64,000 nt of DNA from Nocardia ninae NBRC 108245 (GTDB lineage Bacteria > Actinomycetota > Actinomycetes > Mycobacteriales > Mycobacteriaceae): the NCBI RefSeq assembly GCF_007990755.1, contig NZ_BJXA01000024.1, positions 1-64,000 on the forward strand, in the 5' to 3' direction. Position numbers and translations under genes: made by a program. This document shows, in pieces, positions 31,868 to 48,333 of the stretch. Within the stretch, counting starts at the first letter, position 1, and every line of letters starts with the position of its first letter. The notes under the pieces were generated by a model, which made no database searches, was not told the origin of the DNA, and worked only from the letters and a program-made list of their open reading frames with translations.

Positions 31868-32287
31868 TCACGTCCCTTTACCGAAGGCCTCGAATCGTCG
31901 ACTGCAACGTTCATATAATGCATGGAGAGAGAAGATCAGCATGAAATAGATCGGGATCGACAAGATTTCCCAGTTCTCATTCCGCACGGTTAAGGCCGCG
32001 GATACCACGATGAGGGCATATGACGTGAAAAATGCTGTGCGAATTACGGTAAGGAGATGTCCGCTGGGTGGCCGTCGATGGCAGATGGCGACCGCCGACA
32101 GCGCCACCGTCAATGCCACTCCGATGGCAATGCGTTGCACTACACCGACTCCCGCATATTCCCCGACGAAGGTGAACAGGAGTCCACACCCGATCAAGAT
32201 GGGCACAACTGCTAGAACAAGGAGCCCGAACACTCGGACCCGCAGCTCCCACTCCGTTTCGCGCCGGGCCCCGGGCTCGGACATCAT
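31868..32287 (-). CDS. Small membrane protein of the T7SS-like cassette
   Basis: 139 residues from ATG 32287, which overlaps the upstream stop by one base (TAATG); a second ATG follows immediately. Four hydrophobic helices are visible (VFGLLVLAVVPILIGCGLLF, IAIGVALTVALSAVAI, AFFTSYALIVVSAALTV, ILSIPIYFMLIFSLHAL). No homology recognised. Its coupling to a WXG-like gene is compatible with an immunity protein or membrane partner, but this is inference. Codon use is AT-richer than in the flanking core genes. Confidence 0.72.
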   Translation of the reverse strand: MMSEPGARRETEWELRVRVFGLLVLAVVPILIGCGLLFTFVGEYAGVGVVQRIAIGVALTVALSAVAICHRRPPSGHLLTVIRTAFFTSYALIVVSAALTVRNENWEILSIPIYFMLIFSLHALYERCSRRFEAFGKGT

Positions 32288-33066
32288 TACACTATCTTCC
32301 AGTTGGACTTGTTGTCCCCGTCGACCGATGCATCGTTGAAACTCGAGGACTGCGAGTCCGGCCACTTTCCTTCGGGGAACGATCTTTCCAGATCGCTCAT
32401 GGCCTTTATCTGGGCGCCGAGAAACGTGGCCAGGGCGGTGCAGGCTCCCCAAATGGCTGCCGTGGATACCCCGGAGGTAGCGGCAATGTCGGCGATGCTG
32501 ACAGGCGCCCCGACTCCGGTGATCAGCTCAGCGATGGCCCTGGCGAGACCGAGGAGGAATTCGGCACAAATTACCAATATGCCGACATAGAAGGCGAGGC
32601 CACCGACTGCGGCATCCAGCATCCCGCTCCTCGCCTTATCGGCGATATCAGAAAATGTCCCAGCGGCACCGACCTGGCTGGTGCACGTCTGCATATATGC
32701 AGTCCGAGCGCTACCTTCCCACCTTCGAAGCGCTTCCACGTTGTTGGGATCGATACCTTGCTTGACCCCGGCGGAAACGTCACGGATGTCAGCCCAGTCC
32801 TTGCTTCGCAAGTACATTTCGTACGGCGCACGCACGCCATGGTAGATCTCTTTGATTTTGTCCCATATCCACTGACAAATCTCGATGACTTTATCTGCGC
32901 AAGTCTTGATGAGGCGCTGGAGCGGGGGAAGAAGTCTTACGTAAGGTAGATCCAATGCATCGCTCTTGGCATTCGGAACTTCGACCTTTATTGCATTGTC
33001 TACTTTGGTAAAGAATTTATCCAAGCCATCGAGCACGGAATTGTACTGAGAGATATCGAAACTCAT
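32287..33066 (-). CDS. WXG-like protein with hydrophobic C-terminal half
   Basis: 259 residues from ATG 33066 behind a G-rich ribosome binding site. The N-terminal half is helical. At about residues 133-150 ALRRWEGSARTAYMQTCTSQ carries the W-x-G turn and spacing seen in type VII secretion substrates. Residues about 165-240 contain two long hydrophobic stretches (AAVGGLAFYVGILVICAEFLLGLA; AAIWGACTALATFLGAQI). The tail is polar. It resembles secreted helical-hairpin proteins that insert into or cross membranes; a toxin role is speculative. Less GC-rich than its surroundings. Confidence 0.72.
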   Translation of the reverse strand: MSFDISQYNSVLDGLDKFFTKVDNAIKVEVPNAKSDALDLPYVRLLPPLQRLIKTCADKVIEICQWIWDKIKEIYHGVRAPYEMYLRSKDWADIRDVSAGVKQGIDPNNVEALRRWEGSARTAYMQTCTSQVGAAGTFSDIADKARSGMLDAAVGGLAFYVGILVICAEFLLGLARAIAELITGVGAPVSIADIAATSGVSTAAIWGACTALATFLGAQIKAMSDLERSFPEGKWPDSQSSSFNDASVDGDNKSNWKIV

Positions 33067-33080
33067 AATCGCCCCCCTGG

Positions 33081-33392
33081 TCACCAGACATTGTCGATGC
33101 GGTGCTTGCCTGCCGCGTCTTCGGCTTCGTAAGTATCGGCGCATGTGCGCAGCACGCCGGCTACTTCCGTGAAGCGTTGCGATGCCTCACCTGCACGGCT
33201 GGCCAGATCGTTGACAAGTTTGTCATTCGCGCCGGTGATTGTAAAGAACAAGCCGGCCTCGAGATGAGTAAACGTCAACGTCTCTATCTTCGCCTTGAGG
33301 CCTGACATATCAGTGGCCTTGCCCTCCCAGAGCGCCGCATCGTTGCGGAGTGAGCCGGTTGCGACCTCGAGCTTCTCTGCATCAGCACCCAC
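33081..33392 (-). CDS. EspC-like (DUF2580) type VII secretion protein
   Basis: 103 residues, GTG start after AGAGGGG. It is all helical, with WEG at 22-24, and a C-terminal CADTYEAEDAAGKHRIDNVW holding the Y-x-x-x-D export signal (Tyr88 to Asp92). The end of the ESX-1 substrate EspC has the same layout. It is expected to be exported by an ESX system, probably as a partner of the downstream protein. No ESX core gene (EccB-E, MycP) is in the window. Confidence 0.82.
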   Translation of the reverse strand: MGADAEKLEVATGSLRNDAALWEGKATDMSGLKAKIETLTFTHLEAGLFFTITGANDKLVNDLASRAGEASQRFTEVAGVLRTCADTYEAEDAAGKHRIDNVW

Positions 33393-33463
33393 TGCTGTTC
33401 CCCTCTGATCTACTCACTCGACTCGTAAGTTATGAATCGGCGGCTATTGCTGGTGCAGTAAGT

Positions 33464-34432
33464 TCACCGTGCATCGGACGGCGGATGAATCTGCAGATTG
33501 GCAATGGCTTGAATAGCTTCACCAATCAGCGTACTGGGTGAAATCTCCGAATCGCCATCGTTCGATGTAATTCGCTGGCGATATGCCTGATTATATGACT
33601 CGCTGATCGCCAATGCAATCCGGCCGCCACCCGCATCCATTCCCCAGGGAATGCGGACCGAGCAGTCGACGATGCCATTCTTGTTCAACGTGATTGATGC
33701 GTACAGTTCATTCTCGCCGCCGACGGAAGCCGTGAATTCTCCGACTTTTGATTCTGTGGGATCTCCGTCAAGCTTACGAAGAGCTTTTTCAAGCATCTGC
33801 TCCACGCTGACCGGTTGATAATGCGAGGGCTGTGGCGGGCTGAAACTTGTAGGCGTTGCGGAAGTAATATCGAGCTCTTCGAGTCTGTCGATTGTACCGT
33901 TCTCCGCCGCTGCGATGCTGGTCAACTCGAGGCGCTTTATCTCCGCGTTCTTCACCGCCTGTACGAAGGCCGGGCCGATGCCATTTTGGTCGAGGTATAG
34001 ATGCCAGTTCTCCGAAACGACAACTTGATTCAATTCGCCTGTGCCTGTCACGGTAACCTGTACGGCCCCTGTGCTGTCATGCGCAGTAGTGTTCGATGGC
34101 CCGGCGGAGAAGGCTTCTTGCATCAAGTCTGATATTGCCCTGGTATACCCATGAAACTTGGCAAGGTCGTCGAGGAGGCTGCCGAAACCGGGCAAGTCTG
34201 CCGGTTGATCAGGTCGTGAAGCGGACCCGGAAAAGGTCGAATGCGCGGAACTCGTTGTCGGCAATTCAACGGGATCGGTCGGCGCAGCGGGAGCGGGCCC
34301 GAACGAGGGAGAAGGGGTGGTCCGGGGTTGCGCGATGGAGTCCGCAGGACGAGCCTTTGGCGTCGGCCGGAGCGGTTCCTCATCCCAGTGTTCGTCAGGA
34401 TCGTCGTAATGGTTGTAGAAACCGCCTGCCAT
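33464..34432 (-). CDS. YbaB/EbfC-domain protein of the ESX-associated type
   Basis: 322 residues from ATG 34432 with GAGGTG upstream (a frame extending to 34846 is not credible). Residues 1-75 are acidic and then Pro/Ser/Thr-rich linker. About 85-180 is a YbaB/EbfC-like domain (LMQEAFSAGPSNTTAHDSTGAVQVTVTGTGELNQVVV). A second similar strand-rich segment follows, near 215-300 (KVGEFTASVGGENELYASITLNKNGIVDCSVRI). EspL-type YbaB proteins accompany EspC-like substrates in ESX loci, probably as cytoplasmic chaperones. First gene of the cassette. Confidence 0.78.
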   Translation of the reverse strand: MAGGFYNHYDDPDEHWDEEPLRPTPKARPADSIAQPRTTPSPSFGPAPAAPTDPVELPTTSSAHSTFSGSASRPDQPADLPGFGSLLDDLAKFHGYTRAISDLMQEAFSAGPSNTTAHDSTGAVQVTVTGTGELNQVVVSENWHLYLDQNGIGPAFVQAVKNAEIKRLELTSIAAAENGTIDRLEELDITSATPTSFSPPQPSHYQPVSVEQMLEKALRKLDGDPTESKVGEFTASVGGENELYASITLNKNGIVDCSVRIPWGMDAGGGRIALAISESYNQAYRQRITSNDGDSEISPSTLIGEAIQAIANLQIHPPSDAR

Positions 34433-40696: not shown

Positions 40697-42412
40697 TCAG
40701 ATCATCGCCACCGGCTCGAGCTGACCGGCGATATAGCGGGCACGGCACTCACCGCGGCGCAGCTTCCCGCTGGTCGTCTTGGGTATGCGTCCTGGCTCGA
40801 CCAGCATTACCGCACCGGGTATTACCTCGTGTGCGGCCGCGACTTCCGCGCGGATCCGGCGGGCAAGCGCCGAGAGTTCGGCGGGCTCGATGGCCTCGAC
40901 GGCGGTCAGTTCGGCCACGATCACCAGATCTTCACGGCGCCCGTCGTCGTGCCCGAACGCCGTCACATGGCCGGGCCGGATCGCGGCGGCGCAGCTCTCG
41001 ACCGTCGCCTCGATATCGACCGGAAAGTGATTGCGGCCGTCCACCACGATGACATCCTTGCGGCGTCCCGCTATGTAGAGCTGACCGTCGAACCAGAAGC
41101 CGAGGTCGCCGGTGCGCAGCCAGCGGGCGTCGCTGCCGCGCAGGGTGGCGTGGAAGGTCTCGGCCGTGGCGTCGGGTCTGCCGTGGTAGCCGTCGCACAC
41201 ATTGGCGCCCGTGACCCAGATCTCGCCGACCCGGCCGACGGGCAGCTCGACGCAGGAAACCGGGTGCACGATGCGCACGTCCTGACCGATCGGTGCCCCG
41301 CAGCCGACCAGCGGCGCACCGCCGAGCGGTGGCGGTTCGGCGGCATGCGGCACCGCCCGGCCCTCGGCGAGCGCACCACGGTCGAAGTGCTGTGCCACCG
41401 GCGGTTTTCGCCAGTCACCGATGGTGACGGTCAGTGTCGCCTCGGCCAGGCCGAAGCCGGGCGTGTGTGCCTGATGCCGGAAGCCGTACTCGGCGAACGT
41501 CGCGGTGAATTCCGTGAGGGCCTCGGCCCGAATGGGTTCGGAGCCGTTGAGCAGCATGTCGAGGCAGGACAGGTCGAGTCCGGCCCGCTCCTCCGGCGTT
41601 GTCGCCGAAATAGCAAGGGCCAAACCGAAATTCGGCACACCGGTGATTCCCGCGCGGTAGTCGCTGACGGCACGCAGCCACCGGATCGGGCGCTTGACGA
41701 ATTCCGAGGGGGACATCGTCACACCGAGCACGCCGCAGTAGAGCGGCAGCGCCATACCGAGGATGAGACCCATGTCGTGGAAGAACGGCAGCCAGGTCAG
41801 AATGGGCTTGTCCGGCGAGGGTGCCAGCGCCTGACAGAGCTGTTCCAGTGCAGTCGTCATGTTCGCGTGGGTGACCCGCACGCCGGCGGGCGACTGGGTG
41901 GAGCCCGAGGTGTATTGCAGATAGGCGAGGTCGGTGCGGATCGGGTCGATGACCGGTTCGGCCGAATCCGCAGGCGGCGCAGTGACATCCGACGGGAGTT
42001 CGAGCACCTGGCCGAGCATGGGACCCAGTACGGACGAACTGGTCGAGTCTCCGTGCGAGAGCAAGGCGAGCGTGGGCCGCGCATCGGCGAGTACCGCGAG
42101 CAGCCGCTCCTTGTTGCGGGTACCGGCCGCCGGGAACAACGGCACCGCAATGCGATTGCTGTACAGGCAGGCGAGAAACGCGACCGCATAGTCGAGTCCG
42201 TGCGCGCAGAGGATGGCGACCCGGTCGCCCGGTGCGCTGCCGTCCCGGATCCGTTCGGCGAGTTCGCCTGCGGCGGTATGCAAGCGGGCATAGGTCATGT
42301 CGACGGGCAGCCGCTCGTGTATCCGGTAGCGCAGCTCGGTGCAGGCCACCGTGTCCGGCCGGGACGCGGCCCACTCGGCGATCCGGGCGGCGAGGCTGTT
42401 GCAGGCGGTCAT
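40697..42412 (-). CDS. Fatty-acyl-AMP ligase (FAAL)
   Basis: 571 residues from ATG 42412, overlapping the PKS-like stop by 4 bases (ATGA). ANL-superfamily motifs are intact: LQYTSGSTQSPAGVRVTHANM (P-loop), GFGLAEATLTV, WLRTGDLGFW and the C-terminal PKTTSGKLRR with the catalytic Lys. Phrases such as GSTQSPAGV and VDGRNHFPVDIE are typical of FAAL, not acyl-CoA ligases. It should activate a fatty acid as acyl-AMP and load it on an ACP, most simply the free ACP encoded two genes upstream. All expected active-site elements seem present, in contrast to its PKS-like neighbour. Confidence 0.92.
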   Translation of the reverse strand: MTACNSLAARIAEWAASRPDTVACTELRYRIHERLPVDMTYARLHTAAGELAERIRDGSAPGDRVAILCAHGLDYAVAFLACLYSNRIAVPLFPAAGTRNKERLLAVLADARPTLALLSHGDSTSSSVLGPMLGQVLELPSDVTAPPADSAEPVIDPIRTDLAYLQYTSGSTQSPAGVRVTHANMTTALEQLCQALAPSPDKPILTWLPFFHDMGLILGMALPLYCGVLGVTMSPSEFVKRPIRWLRAVSDYRAGITGVPNFGLALAISATTPEERAGLDLSCLDMLLNGSEPIRAEALTEFTATFAEYGFRHQAHTPGFGLAEATLTVTIGDWRKPPVAQHFDRGALAEGRAVPHAAEPPPLGGAPLVGCGAPIGQDVRIVHPVSCVELPVGRVGEIWVTGANVCDGYHGRPDATAETFHATLRGSDARWLRTGDLGFWFDGQLYIAGRRKDVIVVDGRNHFPVDIEATVESCAAAIRPGHVTAFGHDDGRREDLVIVAELTAVEAIEPAELSALARRIRAEVAAAHEVIPGAVMLVEPGRIPKTTSGKLRRGECRARYIAGQLEPVAMI

Positions 42413-45400
42413 GGGGCCTCGCCGAGGTGCGCGTCGACCAGGCGGCCGAGGGTGTCGGATGGATGGCGTTCGGCCGTGCGGGTGTGCTCGGACGAAGCCG
42501 TCATGGGAGCAAGCAGATTCGTCAGCCGCGTCGCCATGGGTGCGGTGTCGGCGGACGGGGTGTAGTCGACGGCCAAAAGGTATGCCCCCGTGAACCGCAG
42601 CGCGTCGGACAGCAACGCGGCCGCACTGCGGGCGTCGAAGCCGGCTATGCCCGCCTGCCGTGGCGGTACTGCCGGACCTATCGTCCACGCACCCCAGCCG
42701 ATGCTGAGCACGCCCCGCCCGGGGTGCGCCAGTGCGAGGGAATCCATCGCGGCGTTGGCAGCGGCTTCGGCGGAATGGCCTGGTCCGCCGAGTGCACCGG
42801 TGGCCGCGGAGAACAGCAGAATGAAGTCGGTCGGGTCGGCCGAGGTGAGTCCGATCAGATTGCTTGCTGCGGTCAGCTTGGGCGAGAACACTTCGGCCAG
42901 TTGCCCCGGGGTGGTCGCGTCGAAGGTTGCTTCGGTCGCTGTGCCTGCGGCGTGTACGACACCACGGATGGTCGAGCCGCATTCCCGAATGTCGTTGAGC
43001 GCGTTCGCGAGATCGCGCCGATCGGCGGCGTCGCAGCGGACGATGACGATCCGGTCCTCCAGTCCGTCCAGCAGTGCGGGCACCGGGCGGGGCGCGCGGG
43101 TGAGCACCACCACGTCGCGTGCCCCGGCATCGAGCAGCCAGCGCACCGCGACCGCGCCGACCGCACCCAAACCACCGGTGACCACGTAGGTGCCGGTGGC
43201 GTCGACGGTGGCGGTCGGAGTAGGACGAAGCTGTGCGGGGCTGAAGCGCCGGATCGCGAAAGCGCCTGCCCGGAGCCGTATCTCGTCGAGAAGCCGGGTC
43301 GAAGCGCTCGGTCCCCGAGCAACGAGCCGACTCAACGGTGCGACATTCCTGAGATCCGTGTCGATCCAGATCAGGCGCACCGGAAGGTCGGATTCGAGCT
43401 GCAAGGAGCGAACCAGACCGGCAATGGCCTGGGGGGCGGCCAAGGCATCGGTATCGGTGCTCAGCAGCCCGGACGCGGTGGTTCGTTCGACGGGTTCCGG
43501 CAGCACAACCGTCAGGGACCCGGTGCCGTCGTCGGCATGCACGCGTTGCAGCAGGTCGAGTACCCGGCAGGTGGTCGCGGTGGCACTCCGGCCGGGGCCG
43601 ATGGGGTCGGATAGCGTGGCCGAAGAGGCTGTTTCGGATGGCCAGACGAGGACAACGGCAGTGTGCGCGCTACCGGTACCCGACATCGGCAAGGCGGTGA
43701 TGAGGGTACTCGCGGCGTCGGGTTCGCGAGCGACCCGCTCGGTGGGCAGGGTGGTCGAGAGTGTGTCGGACAACCGGATCGCCAGTTCCGAATCGCCGAT
43801 TACCAAGGCGCGGATGGCGATCGGGTGGTCGGGAGCGCAGCTCGCTGTGCCGAAGAAGTCGGTGTCGTGCGACTCCCACATCTCCTGGCGGAAAGGTACC
43901 CGCCGCTCGGTATCTCGTGGGCGCACGGAAAGACGTGCGGAAGGGCTGGATTCCGCAAACCGGATACGCACGCCGCACATCGCCAGACACGGCACGCCGT
44001 GCTGGTCGGTGCCGATGACGTCGCCGCTGAATCCGGTGTCGGTACGCTCGCGGAGCAAGGCGTGCGCCTCCAGCACCACCCGATTCGGTTCGGCCGACAG
44101 CCACACGGAGTCGATGCCGATCGACAGCGGGCTCGCCCCCGTGGGCATCTCATCGAAGGCAATCGCACCGAGCAGATGTAGGCAGCCACTCAACGTTGCG
44201 GCACTCCGCGTTTCAGCGGCATCGAACACGCCGACCGCCCGGTCAGGACCCGTCGCGATGCCGCGCAGCGCGCGGAAACGCGGTCCGTACTCGAGCCTTA
44301 GCGCGCGCAGCGCGTCGTAGAAGGCGGCCGGTGCGATGACCCGCATGCGGTGCCGCCCAGCCCGGTTGGCATCCACCACTCGCATCCATGCGACGATATC
44401 CGCGGGTGTGGGGTCGCCGCCGGGCCGCGCCGATGCCAGCGCTGCGGCCGCCGTGACCTCCGCCCGTACACTTCCGCCGTGCCTGCGATAGCGGACCGCG
44501 GGCAGCGCCGCGAGATCGAGCCGCTCGTGCAGCACGAAGTCGGTGAGCATCGTCGCGGCAGCGCCGCTGGTGCGGGTCAGCTGCAGCAGCCCGAGCAGCC
44601 AGAAAGTCGCGGGCACGGTCGGTACGCCGTTGATCACGTGGTCGGCGAGATCGTCAGAGACGGAAGCGGATTCGGTCGACTCCGGTGCCGCTATGTCGGT
44701 AGCCAGGGGGAATCGACGCTTGCGCCACACCCGCCGTGGTGCGGTACGGAACGGGCCTTGCGCGGACCAGTCGACCGGTCGCCCTTCCAGATGGAGTCGG
44801 GCCAGGCAGGTCAGGAAAGCGCCGGCCTCGTCGGCACGAGTCGCCACCGGGTGAGCGCCGCCATGGAATTGGGGGTACTCCTCGACCGCCAAAAGCAACG
44901 AGGGATGTGGCGCGAGCTCCAGCACCGTCGAGAGTCCGTCCGCGGCGGCCCGCTCCAGCGCGGCGGCGAGATCGACTGTCCGCGAAGCATTCTCGGCCCA
45001 GTACTTGCCGTCCAGCACTGCGGTGTCGATCAGCTCGCCGCGGCGGGTGGTGGAGTACAGCGGAGTGTGCGGTGCCGTCGGTGCCAAGTCGGCGAGCGAT
45101 TCGATGAACTCCGCAGGGACGGTGGCGAGGCGCGGGTACGCGGCGGACTCGTCGGTGAGCCGCAGCACAGGCAGGTCGCGGCGCTTGGCCCGCCGCACCA
45201 GCGTATCGATGTAGCGCGGGGTGCCCGAGACGACCACCGACCGCGGACCGTTGATCGCCGCGACGGCGACCTGTGCGCGCATCGGCTCCACCAGTTTCAC
45301 CACCAGATGCGACGGTGCGAGCAGCAGGGCTACCGCGTCACTGTCCACAGATTCGGACAGGATCGCGCTGCGCCGCAGCACGACCCGCGCCGCATCCGAC

Positions 45401-46983
45401 ACCGACAGCGCGCCGCCGACCACGGCCGCGGCGATCTCACCGAGACCGTGCCCCACCACCGCGTCCGGCCGAATACCCCACGTCGCGAGCAGTTCCGCCA
45501 TCGCCAAGTGGAACGCGAAAATCGCGGGATGGGCGAATGTGCGTGAGCCGTTTCCATTGCTCGCAGCGCCGATGGCGAAGCCGTGCCGTGGCGTCCAGAC
45601 CCGAGGCCCGCCTGCCGTAACGATCGCGTCGGCGACCCTGGTCAACGCGGCCGCGAATGTGCTGTGCCGGGCGGCGAGTGCCCGTCCCATGGCGAGATGT
45701 TGTTCGCCTGTACCGGTGAACAAGAACAACAGTCCGCCCGGCCTTCGAGTCGGGGACGGACCGATCACCGCTCTGCTCGGATCGCCGTCTGCCAGCGCGC
45801 GCAGCCGATGCACCGCATCGTCACGGGCGTCGGCCAGCACACACGCCCGTGTCTGCTCCGGCATCAATCGTGAGGCAGCGGAGGCGATTTCACGCAACGG
45901 CTCGGTACCGGGTTCGAGTCGGTCGGCGAGCCGGAGCGCCTGTGCGCTCAGTTCATCGGCGTCGCGCCCGGTGATGGGGATGAGCACCGGCGGATCGTCG
46001 CTGCGGACCAACGGTGATGTCTCGATGCGGCGCAGTACGTGCGCGGCGTCGGTGTCGAATGCGCTGATGCCCCAGTGGGTTTCGCTCGGTCGCGCAGCGG
46101 TCCAATCGCCAGGCGCGGTGGACACCTGTGGACTGTGCGCACCGGCCGTAGCCGTGCCGGCTCCGTCGTGAACAGACAGTGCTGCCTCGATCAGTCCGAT
46201 CAGGCCTGCGCCGGCCGTACGGTACATGTCGTCGGAGGCCGTCGAGCCGTTCCGGATCTGTTCGGTTGGCGATGAAATGCCCTGTGTAACAACGGAACAC
46301 GATGTCGTAACGAGTTCCGCGTATACCCGATTGCCTTCACGCAACGCGTCGCCGGTGCGCTGCATGATCACCACGGCGCAGGCGGCACGGCGTACATCGC
46401 CATCCAAATCAAGGGAGTCCGGTGAACGGAATCCGTTCTCCGCGAAGTAGTCCGATGCGAGCAGCGGCAGATCGACCCCGCCCACGATGGCGAACGGCAC
46501 CGCCTCGTCGACGAGCAGCCGGACCGCCAAGTCGACGGCTACCAACGACGATCCCGCGCTGTCCACCACCAGGCTCGGCCCGTGTAGCTCCAGCGCGGCG
46601 GACAACCGAGTGGCGACGCCGCTGAGCGCGGTGCCGGCGTGCGGTACGTCGAATCCATCCCGGCCGAGCATCGGGCTGTGGTCGTAGCCGAAGAGCACCG
46701 CGGCCCCCGAACCTCTGGTGCGATAGCCGATACCGGCATCATCGATGGCCTCGACCGCGACCTCCATGGCCATCCGTTGCCGCGGATCCAGCAGCGCCGC
46801 CGCTTGGTCGGCGATGGCGAACCATTCGTTGTCGAACCACGCGGTGTCGTCCGGATATTCGCCGCGCGGCGCGTCCCTTTTCGGACCGGTAGCGTCGCGC
46901 CCCAGCAGCCCCCGGAATTCGTCGCCTTCGGCTCCCGGCACGCGGCAACCGATCCCGATGATGGATACCCAGGGCCCCGTCAT
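42409..46983 (-). CDS. PKS-like multidomain protein with apparently inactive KS-AT-DH-KR
   Basis: 1524 residues from ATG 46983 (MTGPWVSIIGIGCRVPG), overlapping the ACP stop by 4 bases. Domain order: KS-like (1 to about 290), AT (about 400-690), DH (about 760-960), KR (about 1180-1460); no integral ACP. Each lacks key residues. The KS nucleophile motif is DSAGSSL (141-147) without Cys, and the HGTGT and N-x-GH blocks are absent. AT has GHGLGE with Gly513 for Ser. DH keeps His782 (H-x3-G-x4-P), but Ser932 stands at the Asp position. KR keeps the NADPH loop TGGLGAVG, but Ala1393 and Glu1406 replace Ser and Tyr. The 4.6-kb frame has no stop or frameshift, so it is not a decaying pseudogene by ordinary signs. 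Confidence 0.88.
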   Translation of the reverse strand: MTGPWVSIIGIGCRVPGAEGDEFRGLLGRDATGPKRDAPRGEYPDDTAWFDNEWFAIADQAAALLDPRQRMAMEVAVEAIDDAGIGYRTRGSGAAVLFGYDHSPMLGRDGFDVPHAGTALSGVATRLSAALELHGPSLVVDSAGSSLVAVDLAVRLLVDEAVPFAIVGGVDLPLLASDYFAENGFRSPDSLDLDGDVRRAACAVVIMQRTGDALREGNRVYAELVTTSCSVVTQGISSPTEQIRNGSTASDDMYRTAGAGLIGLIEAALSVHDGAGTATAGAHSPQVSTAPGDWTAARPSETHWGISAFDTDAAHVLRRIETSPLVRSDDPPVLIPITGRDADELSAQALRLADRLEPGTEPLREIASAASRLMPEQTRACVLADARDDAVHRLRALADGDPSRAVIGPSPTRRPGGLLFLFTGTGEQHLAMGRALAARHSTFAAALTRVADAIVTAGGPRVWTPRHGFAIGAASNGNGSRTFAHPAIFAFHLAMAELLATWGIRPDAVVGHGLGEIAAAVVGGALSVSDAARVVLRRSAILSESVDSDAVALLLAPSHLVVKLVEPMRAQVAVAAINGPRSVVVSGTPRYIDTLVRRAKRRDLPVLRLTDESAAYPRLATVPAEFIESLADLAPTAPHTPLYSTTRRGELIDTAVLDGKYWAENASRTVDLAAALERAAADGLSTVLELAPHPSLLLAVEEYPQFHGGAHPVATRADEAGAFLTCLARLHLEGRPVDWSAQGPFRTAPRRVWRKRRFPLATDIAAPESTESASVSDDLADHVINGVPTVPATFWLLGLLQLTRTSGAAATMLTDFVLHERLDLAALPAVRYRRHGGSVRAEVTAAAALASARPGGDPTPADIVAWMRVVDANRAGRHRMRVIAPAAFYDALRALRLEYGPRFRALRGIATGPDRAVGVFDAAETRSAATLSGCLHLLGAIAFDEMPTGASPLSIGIDSVWLSAEPNRVVLEAHALLRERTDTGFSGDVIGTDQHGVPCLAMCGVRIRFAESSPSARLSVRPRDTERRVPFRQEMWESHDTDFFGTASCAPDHPIAIRALVIGDSELAIRLSDTLSTTLPTERVAREPDAASTLITALPMSGTGSAHTAVVLVWPSETASSATLSDPIGPGRSATATTCRVLDLLQRVHADDGTGSLTVVLPEPVERTTASGLLSTDTDALAAPQAIAGLVRSLQLESDLPVRLIWIDTDLRNVAPLSRLVARGPSASTRLLDEIRLRAGAFAIRRFSPAQLRPTPTATVDATGTYVVTGGLGAVGAVAVRWLLDAGARDVVVLTRAPRPVPALLDGLEDRIVIVRCDAADRRDLANALNDIRECGSTIRGVVHAAGTATEATFDATTPGQLAEVFSPKLTAASNLIGLTSADPTDFILLFSAATGALGGPGHSAEAAANAAMDSLALAHPGRGVLSIGWGAWTIGPAVPPRQAGIAGFDARSAAALLSDALRFTGAYLLAVDYTPSADTAPMATRLTNLLAPMTASSEHTRTAERHPSDTLGRLVDAHLGEAP

Positions 46984-47219
46984 CGCATCGCGAGATACTC
47001 GACCAGCCGGTCTATGTCGGGGTAGTCGTACATCGCGGTGAGCGAAACCTCCACCCCCATCGCGTCCTCGAGGCGTGCCGTCAACCGCGCCAATTGGGTG
47101 GAGTTCAGGCCGAGATCGGTGAACGGCGCGTCGGTGCAGACGGCGGTCGCATCGACGCCGAGCAGCTCCGCCACGGCCGTGACCGCCGTGGTGGTGAGCG
47201 CCGCACGACTGCGTACCAT
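46980..47219 (-). CDS. Free-standing acyl carrier protein
   Basis: 79 residues from ATG 47219, which has CGGAG five bases before it; ATG 47234 is an alternative. A typical carrier fold with the 4'-phosphopantetheine site in FTDLGLNSTQLARL (Ser after Leu-Asn), preceded by LLGVDATAV and followed by VSLTAMYDYPDIDRL, the helix II-III pattern of PKS-type ACPs. First gene of the ACP, PKS-like, FAAL operon; it is the obvious acceptor for the FAAL product. Its stop overlaps the next start. Confidence 0.9.
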   Translation of the reverse strand: MVRSRAALTTTAVTAVAELLGVDATAVCTDAPFTDLGLNSTQLARLTARLEDAMGVEVSLTAMYDYPDIDRLVEYLAMR

Positions 47220-47373
47220 CGAGCTCCGATCCATCCCGAGACGTACTACCCCCGCAACGGCGGCTCGTCTCGACCGCCCAGGTACCCCCCGCGATTATGC
47301 CGAGATATCGCACTGTGGAGAAGAGTCTCTTGCGCGGCATGCGCCGCGAACACCCATCACCTACCGTGGCGAG

Positions 47374-48333
47374 GTGAGCGAAAACTCCGCACGCCTGGCC
47401 GATGGCCGTCCTGGAACCCTCCGCACGCTGGCCCGCTGCTGCGCCGCGCTGGCCGCGACGCCCGGCCGCCTGCTCCGCCCGCGGCAGCCCGACGCGGCGT
47501 TTCTGGCAAGCCTGGCGGACACGCCCGCCCCGAAGGCCACCGCGACGGTCCGGTTGACCGCGCTGCCGCAGGCGACGATGGCCGCGCCCGCCATCATCGT
47601 CGCCGAGGGGGTGCGCAGCCTGCGCGAGTTGCCGATGTCGATGGGCGCCTTCCTGATCGAGCATCCGCAGGCCAGGTTCCTCGTCGATCCCGCCATCTGC
47701 TCCGACGTGCACGAGCGGGTCCTGCCCGGTCACCCCTTTCCGGTCGGCAAGCTGGTGTCGCCCGACAAGCCGGTCCTCGGCCTGAGCAACGCGCTCGCCG
47801 CCCGCGATCTCGCCCCCACCGACATCGATTTCACCCTGGCCACCCACCTGCACTGGGATCATGTCGCGGGCCTGCTCGAACTACCGGACTCGATCGAACT
47901 CAGGGTCCCCGCGGTGGAATACGACTGGGCGATGCACGGTGCCGAGGCCCCGATCGGCGTCATCCGCGAACCGCTACGCGGCCGAGCCATCGCCCCGGTG
48001 GAACTGGACGGCCCGCCGGTCCTGACCTTCCCGCGCAGCCATGATGTATTCGGCGACGGTGCCGTCATCCTCGTCGACCTGGCCGGGCACACCCCCGGCA
48101 GCATCGGCGTCCTGCTGGCAGTCGAGGACGGCACCCGAGTCCTGCTCGCCGGTGACGCCGTCTGGAACACGCTGCAGATCAGCCTGATCCGCGAAAAGGC
48201 TCCCATGCCCGGCAACCTTTTCGACGCCGACCGCGACGCCGCCTTCCGCACCATCCAGCGCCTGCACGCCCTCCCGGCCGACATCGAGGTCATCGCCAGC
48301 CACGACTACGACGCCGTTCTGGCCCGGGCCTGA
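47374..48333 (+). CDS. Metallo-beta-lactamase-fold hydrolase
   Basis: 319 residues from GTG 47374 (GAGG just upstream; a frame from 47038 overlaps the ACP and is rejected). The zinc motif HLHWDH stands in LATHLHWDHVAGLLEL, followed by GHTPGS, LLAGDAVW and ASHDYDAV supplying the other ligands. This is the lactonase/AttM-like lineage of the fold; it could also be a thioesterase. It is divergent from the ACP operon with 154 bp between starts, so it may share regulation. Confidence 0.87.
   Translation: MSENSARLADGRPGTLRTLARCCAALAATPGRLLRPRQPDAAFLASLADTPAPKATATVRLTALPQATMAAPAIIVAEGVRSLRELPMSMGAFLIEHPQARFLVDPAICSDVHERVLPGHPFPVGKLVSPDKPVLGLSNALAARDLAPTDIDFTLATHLHWDHVAGLLELPDSIELRVPAVEYDWAMHGAEAPIGVIREPLRGRAIAPVELDGPPVLTFPRSHDVFGDGAVILVDLAGHTPGSIGVLLAVEDGTRVLLAGDAVWNTLQISLIREKAPMPGNLFDADRDAAFRTIQRLHALPADIEVIASHDYDAVLARA

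Follow-up and report, generated by a model that had tools for sequence, protein, structure and literature searches.

A stretch of 64,000 nucleotides from Nocardia ninae NBRC 108245 (contig NZ_BJXA01000024.1), hereafter the window, carries a 1524-residue reading frame that is homologous to type I cis-acyltransferase polyketide synthases (PKSs), has their ketosynthase (KS), acyltransferase (AT), dehydratase (DH) and ketoreductase (KR) domains in the usual order, and has lost catalytic residues in all four. An original prediction, made from the letters of the window alone, held that selection maintains this protein without its chemistry, and our analysis agrees: the frame is open, it evolves well below the neutral rate (dN/dS 0.32 against its orthologue in N. 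suismassiliense), glycine has repeatedly taken the place of the AT nucleophile among its orthologues, and a set of non-catalytic residues has been retained throughout. The protein is thus an enzyme homologue without catalytic residues that is kept by selection; on sequence grounds it is most likely a pseudoenzyme rather than an ordinary pseudogene, and a non-catalytic function most likely exists. We think it rather probable that it is a dead PKS descendant kept for a non-catalytic role of its AT fold and of the nucleotide-binding half of its KR.

Catalytic residues missing from the window protein

The frame, its domains and the two genes that it overlaps are arranged as follows.

42409..46983, reverse strand: pseudo-PKS frame, 1524 amino acids (KS remnant, AT with Gly, DH, KR, no acyl carrier protein (ACP) in cis); open frame, Pfam and alignment.
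46174..46983, reverse strand: KS remnant, approximately residues 1-270, nucleophile Cys deleted, HGTGT and NIGH blocks absent; Pfam and alignment.
44878..45726, reverse strand: AT core, residues 420-702; Pfam, and AT fold in the predicted model.
45445..45447, reverse strand: AT nucleophile codon GGT, Gly513 (Ser in intact orthologues); alignment.
45577..45597, reverse strand: WTPRHGF, residues 463-469, a family-specific motif kept in AT-Gly forms; alignment and census.
45178..45195, reverse strand: RRAKRR, residues 597-602, four Arg kept in 50/50 AT-Gly loci; census.
43948..44676, reverse strand: DH domain, His782 kept, Asp position Ser932 (44188-44190); Pfam and alignment.
42634..43197, reverse strand: KR domain, NADP-binding half kept; Pfam and alignment.
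42805-42807 and 42766-42768, reverse strand: KR Ser position, Ala1393, and KR Tyr position, Glu1406; alignment.
46980..47234, reverse strand: free-standing ACP, 84 amino acids, DLGLNS motif intact; Pfam and motif reading.
40697..42412, reverse strand: fatty acyl-AMP ligase (FAAL), 571 amino acids, motifs intact; Pfam, NCBIfam and motif reading.

Pfam recognises the N-terminal half of the KS (79 bits), the AT (152), the PS-DH (50) and the KR (140), and finds no match to the C-terminal KS family at E values up to 1. All three members of the KS Cys-His-His triad are absent, the window reading DSA-GSSL in place of the DSACSSSL of intact orthologues. The AT has neither member of its Ser-His dyad nor the oxyanion Gln, and the KR Ser-Tyr-Lys set is reduced to Lys1369, which stands with the GGLGxxG motif and DH His782 among the residues kept. 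The KS is also shortened in its second half, and the C-terminal ACP found in cis in 50 of 52 aligned orthologues with an AT serine is missing as well. The claim that all four catalytic domains are disabled was therefore correct at each residue named (Gly513, Ser932, Ala1393, Glu1406), and the loss of the KS nucleophile with its HGTGT and N-x-GH blocks is plain against the intact orthologues. The claims of an uninterrupted frame sharing four bases with the ACP gene on one side (46980-47234) and the FAAL gene on the other (40697-42412), of an intact ACP serine motif and of an intact FAAL also held; the FAAL has the adenylation motifs A3, A5, A7 and the A10 Lys, and its best NCBIfam model is PRK05850 (447 bits, under the cut-off of 775). 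Displacement of residues that are still present, which the original prediction had asked to be checked by alignment, is ruled out, as the orthologue rows and the alignment to a solved homologue show true loss. No second copy of this PKS was found in the window's genome by whole-protein search at E up to 1e-100.

One could still envision an enzyme that works through moved or unusual residues, in which the DH His, the KR Lys and the cofactor motif had remained in use, and among 20 AT-Gly rows the KR Ser and KR Tyr each survive in 7. We regard this as highly improbable for the window protein, where AT Ser, His and Gln are gone together, the KS has neither its Cys nor either His, KR Ser and Tyr are lost and there is no carrier in cis.

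Orthologues and the recurrent Ser-to-Gly change

The family appears to belong to Nocardia. The 31 loci that turned up in a scan of named genomes are all titled Nocardia; in a genus sample of 118 genomes, one per species and the window's own included, 68 match at E up to 1e-100; and an AT-core search at E up to 1e-40 found an orthologue in 3 of 61 wider-family genomes, all Nocardia (again including the window's own), and in none of 58 genomes from 30 other genera. Loci of 106 genus genomes were read, of which four show no such frame (G031 because its contig ends) and one, G034, is cut before the AT site, leaving 101 readable; the census of these 101 uses the genus set alone. Residue counts otherwise refer to 72 aligned rows, from which L022, the fragments L119 (whose contig has no AT) and L120 and the paralogue L116 are excluded, seven duplicates having been removed because the named loci L009-L039 partly overlap the genus genomes. 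L116 (genome G066, contig C1) is a second PKS relative, 35% identical, elsewhere in its genome.

Wherever flanks were available (the short loci L139-L158 lie outside this check), the locus has one gene order with local changes: a FadD5-like acyl-CoA ligase, a nitronate monooxygenase-like protein, ACP, PKS, FAAL, an S4 protein, NlpC/P60 and an ATPase. The intact form is a KS-AT-DH-KR-ACP synthase with a separate ACP and FAAL. All eight scored catalytic residues are present in 51/72 rows, a single row (L039) keeps the AT Ser and lacks one KS His, and 20/72 have AT Gly. A counterpart of the window protein, in N. suismassiliense (L009), has lost the same sites, with Thr rather than Ala at the KR Ser position; this, with the AT glycine of about half the readable genomes, shows that the losses are no accident, and the orthologues with like substitutions sought by the original prediction do exist. 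That prediction had also named intact orthologues, coupled with neutral evolution of the frame, as grounds for giving it up; the former exist, as the 51 rows attest, yet the frame is not neutral. Among the 20 AT-Gly rows, a remnant of the cis-ACP is seen in L103 alone (40.9 bits), L030 and L102 being too short there to judge. The two AT-Ser rows without a cis-ACP, L039 and L115, also have no FAAL at the site and a changed KS His or KR Lys, and may possibly represent an early stage of retirement. The orthologues L014 and L036 have intact residues and, in the KS, a repetitive Arg/Ser/Thr/Gln-rich insertion between HGTGT and NIGH, which is long in L014.

The AT nucleophile position reads Ser in 51 and Gly in 50 of the 101 readable genomes, with no third letter. 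A tree of six neighbouring genes (73 rows) requires 8 changes between Ser and Gly, 6 of them forced by starred branches; with the shortened forms described below added (89 rows, L132 of genome G034 being entered as Ser although its AT is unreadable) it requires 8, all forced; and the PKS's own tree (71 rows, the Ser column masked) requires 7, of which 6 are forced. A single AT-Gly clade is rejected by approximately unbiased (AU) tests run without a mixture model, with p-AU of 4e-39 for the neighbouring genes (20 rows) and 9e-11 for the PKS (19 rows). One old AT-Gly allele, whether transferred or descended from a single ancestor, is thus at odds with both trees and with the tests, and regain of Ser from Gly is not credible because the Ser rows carry the remaining residues and the ACP too.

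Other active-site positions show no such uniformity. At the KS Cys position the 20 Gly rows have Arg (5), Gln (4), Gly (4), Cys (3), a gap (2), Ser (1) and Asp (1), and at the KR Tyr position Tyr (7), Asp (6), Glu (2), Ser (2), a gap (1), Gly (1) and Arg (1). If each event is a single mutational step with a transition weight of 2.5, the odds of Gly are 0.23 per event and the chance of Gly in 8/8 without selection is ∼7e-6. Glycine is probably the residue best suited to take the place of Ser in a strained nucleophile turn, and this in itself implies that the fold matters. In three loci of the N. brasiliensis group (L015, L029, L109) the KS change is Cys to Gln. The decarboxylating KS known as KSQ likewise has Gln for Cys and keeps both His; both are absent in these three loci, and the window has a deletion at the Cys, so the KSQ explanation was rejected for all of them.

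Selection and retained residues in AT-Gly forms

The pairwise maximum-likelihood dN/dS (omega) between the window frame and L009 is 0.32 (0.27-0.38 over 60 bootstrap replicates; 0.31 when the pair was aligned separately), and twice the log-likelihood difference from omega = 1 is 106. Values among AT-Gly rows generally lie between 0.13 and 0.40 (0.14-0.18 in the N. brasiliensis group, 0.14 for L037-L106), with 0.085 for the saturated pair L089-L106. By domain, the window-L009 comparison gives 0.59 for the KS (residues 1-329), 0.21 for the AT (0.18 for its core, residues 420-702), 0.16 for the DH and 0.19 for the KR; the KS is the most relaxed, the same region giving 0.03-0.10 in intact pairs. 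A neutral model predicts 4-8 stop codons per lineage since the window and L009 diverged and up to 33 for older pairs, whereas the frames of all these pairs run through every domain without a stop. Choosing frames for being open necessarily conceals stops; a stop-tolerant AT search offsets this, and none of the AT matches listed has a stop inside the AT. Five whole-protein matches do contain one: in G008, G040, G047 and G058 it is the frame end shared by the N. brasiliensis group, ∼40 residues before the window's end, and in G065 it is the broken frame L074, which is the same locus as L030.

The 52 Ser rows have 94 AT columns conserved at ≥98%; 23 of these are unchanged in every one of the 32 Gly rows compared, and 22 survive in under half. 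The catalytic losses are the Ser (kept in 0/32), the oxyanion Gln (5/32) and the catalytic His (15/32) together with its surrounding loop. Unchanged in 32/32 are Trp175 of WTP, the Gly and Phe of GF, and Arg306, Arg307, Arg310 and Arg311 of RRAxRR. In the census of 50 AT-Gly loci the Trp and Gly of WTPxxGF and each RRAxRR Arg are found in 50/50, as against 7/50 for the Gln and 27/50 for the His. The KR still has its glycine loop, R56, D78 and D81 in 31-32 of the 32 Gly rows, as against 9 rows for the catalytic Ser, 7 for the Tyr and 17 for the Lys. Neither AT motif occurs in the stretches compared from seven further AT domains encoded in the window's genome. Both are common to the intact orthologues and the AT-Gly forms, and because intact synthases carry the same non-catalytic signature, the non-catalytic role probably predates the loss of chemistry.

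Several AT-Gly forms are much shorter than the window protein. Four (L125, L127, L128, L138) are of 649-684 amino acids and, having no KS, consist of an AT joined by a linker to the first half of a KR; others (L129-L131, L133-L136, L102) are of 871-1114 and contain KS remnants. These forms sit at the same place in genomes that the whole-protein search missed. When frames were scored by motif from stop to stop, 12 Gly frames fell below 760 amino acids, 21 at 760-1400 and 15 above, while 48 of 50 Ser frames measured at least 1400, the other two being shorter and on short contigs. The mini proteins of 649-758 amino acids (AT-Gly and half a KR) thus occur in 12 of 98 motif-scored loci, including the four above and several of L139-L158; a thirteenth, in G097, is of 681 amino acids and was read as Gly in the residue census. 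Omega between short forms is 0.13-0.40. In the predicted structure of the 684-residue form L128 (mean pLDDT 71), pLDDT mostly exceeds 90 across the AT and is 84-94 over the first Rossmann half, with disordered linkers between the parts; this model matches PKS AT structures, and that of window residues 325-1524 (mean pLDDT 78) matches PKS modules.

Several observations weigh against a retained function. Constraint is relaxed, 0.32 for the window and L009 as compared with 0.08-0.16 in intact pairs, and the FadD5, nitronate monooxygenase, FAAL and ATPase genes of the same two genomes give only 0.02-0.05 (0.12 for the short ACP); the mini pair L125-L128 reaches 0.40. The G+C content at third codon positions is 0.79 in the frame and 0.87 in its FadD5 gene, the twelve intact orthologues listed having 0.82-0.90. 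L121, L122 and L126 have no such frame at the site, their surroundings being rearranged, and because it is missing there the frame must be dispensable in these three. In L030 (the same as L074; N. brasiliensis IFM 10847), a pyrosequencing draft, the PKS frame is broken and the ACP frame cut; the break may be a sequencing error, and the KR columns and C-terminus of this row carry no meaning. The trees were quick ones, that of 89 rows having one kind of support value, and the groups for the AU tests were chosen after the trees were known. Finally, the KR residues may have been kept for the sake of folding and not of binding.

These points can be read as slow decay, with no function left and the open frame and low dN/dS reflecting lag and selection against harmful misfolded products. 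The nearly relaxed KS, the shrinking frames, the 0.40 of L125-L128, the three genomes without a frame and the loss of cis-ACP, FAAL and ACP in many lineages all fit such a process, but it does not account for AT-core omegas that, with the Ser already gone, are 0.03 and 0.07 in the two most closely related pairs of the N. brasiliensis group (a third gives 0.16; intact pairs 0.06-0.14), for omegas of 0.13-0.21 in AT-Gly pairs with dS above 1, for frames open against the ∼4-33 stops expected per lineage, or for Gly and the four Arg in every degenerate locus read. We consider it unlikely, the constraint on the pseudo-PKS being relaxed but far from neutral. It is even harder to credit that the frame is a translated spacer, open solely so that ribosomes reach the FAAL start that overlaps the PKS stop by 4 bases. 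The overlaps on both sides and the strong conservation of the FAAL would suit this, but amino-acid constraint and the shared Gly are left unexplained, and the FAAL-less lineages contradict it: L019, L037, L089 and L106 have no FAAL after the PKS, and the gene mapped next runs on the opposite strand, yet their frames are open, with the L037-L106 omega given above.

An older non-catalytic function is the simplest account, since the active sites have been lost and other parts kept in separate lineages, and these parts are conserved in the intact relatives too. We would propose that the protein descends from an intact type I PKS (KS-AT-DH-KR-ACP) which, with its FAAL and ACP, occupied a single locus passed on vertically in Nocardia, and that the window lineage lost the cis-ACP and the AT nucleophile, with the KS, DH and KR residues probably following later. 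The role would be carried by the AT fold, with Gly in the nucleophile turn and the Trp/Arg signature, and by the nucleotide-binding KR half; through the AT surface and this half, the retained residues may bind either a protein partner or a nucleotide resembling NADP(H) or CoA, and such binding would be the selected function. More tentatively, the second function of the AT may be older than the loss across the genus, so that about half of the sampled species would have retired the enzyme, at least 8 times independently and each time through Ser-to-Gly, some reducing a protein of ∼1700 amino acids to a 650-residue AT/Rossmann protein.

Neighbouring genes and known systems

The original prediction proposed that the protein may act as a scaffold for the FAAL-loaded ACP. 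As a general mechanism this is not supported: at 20/33 AT-Gly loci neither FAAL nor ACP lies in the fetched flanks (the rest of those genomes was not searched), so that scaffolding of an acyl-ACP does not explain why the protein is kept across the family. A further 3/33 (L103, L104, L105) have no ACP and a degenerate FAAL that has lost its P-loop and A10 Lys motifs; a second pseudoenzyme may thus sit beside the first in these loci. The remaining 10/33, the window's clade, have both genes, with the FAAL and ACP motifs kept in 10/10 rows (the cut ACP frame of L030 notwithstanding). Omega for the FAAL is 0.02-0.10 in this clade (8 pairs; 0.049 for the window and L009) as compared to 0.08-0.21 in intact clusters (9 pairs), and because it is the more constrained here, these two genes are probably useful in the clade in their own right, perhaps together with the pseudo-PKS. 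A dead PKS that receives or shields the FAAL-loaded ACP is, as the reason for keeping the protein, quite unlikely: the conserved motifs and tighter FAAL constraint of the window's clade favour it, but the same AT and KR residues are kept where FAAL and ACP are missing or degenerate. Within the window's clade alone, the pseudo-PKS may still work beside the loaded ACP.

Divergently placed at 47578-48333 on the forward strand is a metallo-beta-lactamase-fold hydrolase with HxHxDH, found at 63/89 loci with 64-98% identity (window aside). It was rejected as an obligate partner, being missing beside 12/33 AT-Gly forms and present at three loci without a PKS frame. A known anti-phage family was also rejected, PADLOC giving no match for P0001 and P0003. 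Elsewhere in the window, G+C falls to 0.558 at 32001-34000, the remaining 2-kb blocks having 0.635-0.697.

Among known systems, the nearest to the window protein are the intact Nocardia orthologues, which share its locus, neighbours, domain order and the WTPxxGF and RRAxRR motifs, and differ in their intact catalytic residues and, in all but two AT-Ser rows, a C-terminal ACP. Mycocerosic acid synthase (MAS) and the mycobacterial type I PKSs share KS, AT and KR homology (best PDB match 9d2z); MAS, however, is active and has neither WTPRHGF nor RRAxRR at the aligned places, and the window protein scores 464 against NCBIfam NF045894, whose cut-off is 1740. Dead domains inside working PKSs and fatty acid synthases (FAS) are familiar, including KSQ, inactive DH or KR domains and the pseudo-methyltransferase of mammalian FAS. 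As in the window protein, their catalytic residues are lost and the fold kept; in those enzymes, however, one domain of a working synthase is dead, while the window protein is dead in every domain and has no carrier, and this has recurred in separate lineages at one locus.

Plant CHIL (PMC10276294) is likewise a noncatalytic protein kept beside a polyketide pathway, but it acts on an active synthase, whereas in the present case it is the synthase that is dead. Komaki et al. 2014 (PMC4035055) compared type I PKS clusters of seven Nocardia strains, three of them N. brasiliensis, and in the passages seen the probably inactive DH domains belong to another cluster and not to this locus; the matched passages of PMC12153302 and PMC7413640 contain nothing on it. 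No account of a whole-PKS pseudoenzyme was found in the literature searched, in which subscription papers were mostly beyond reach, so one is possibly in print elsewhere.

Pseudoenzymes are usually viewed as single old events that follow gene duplication. Here the dead form replaces the enzyme itself, in separate lineages and at one locus, and intact sister species provide the controls. For the half of loci that have AT-Gly, genome miners should refrain from predicting a lipid product, even though a domain search alone would call them PKS genes. The family thus offers a natural experiment in the passage from megasynthase to non-catalytic protein, in the order in which domains die and in the nature of the second job.

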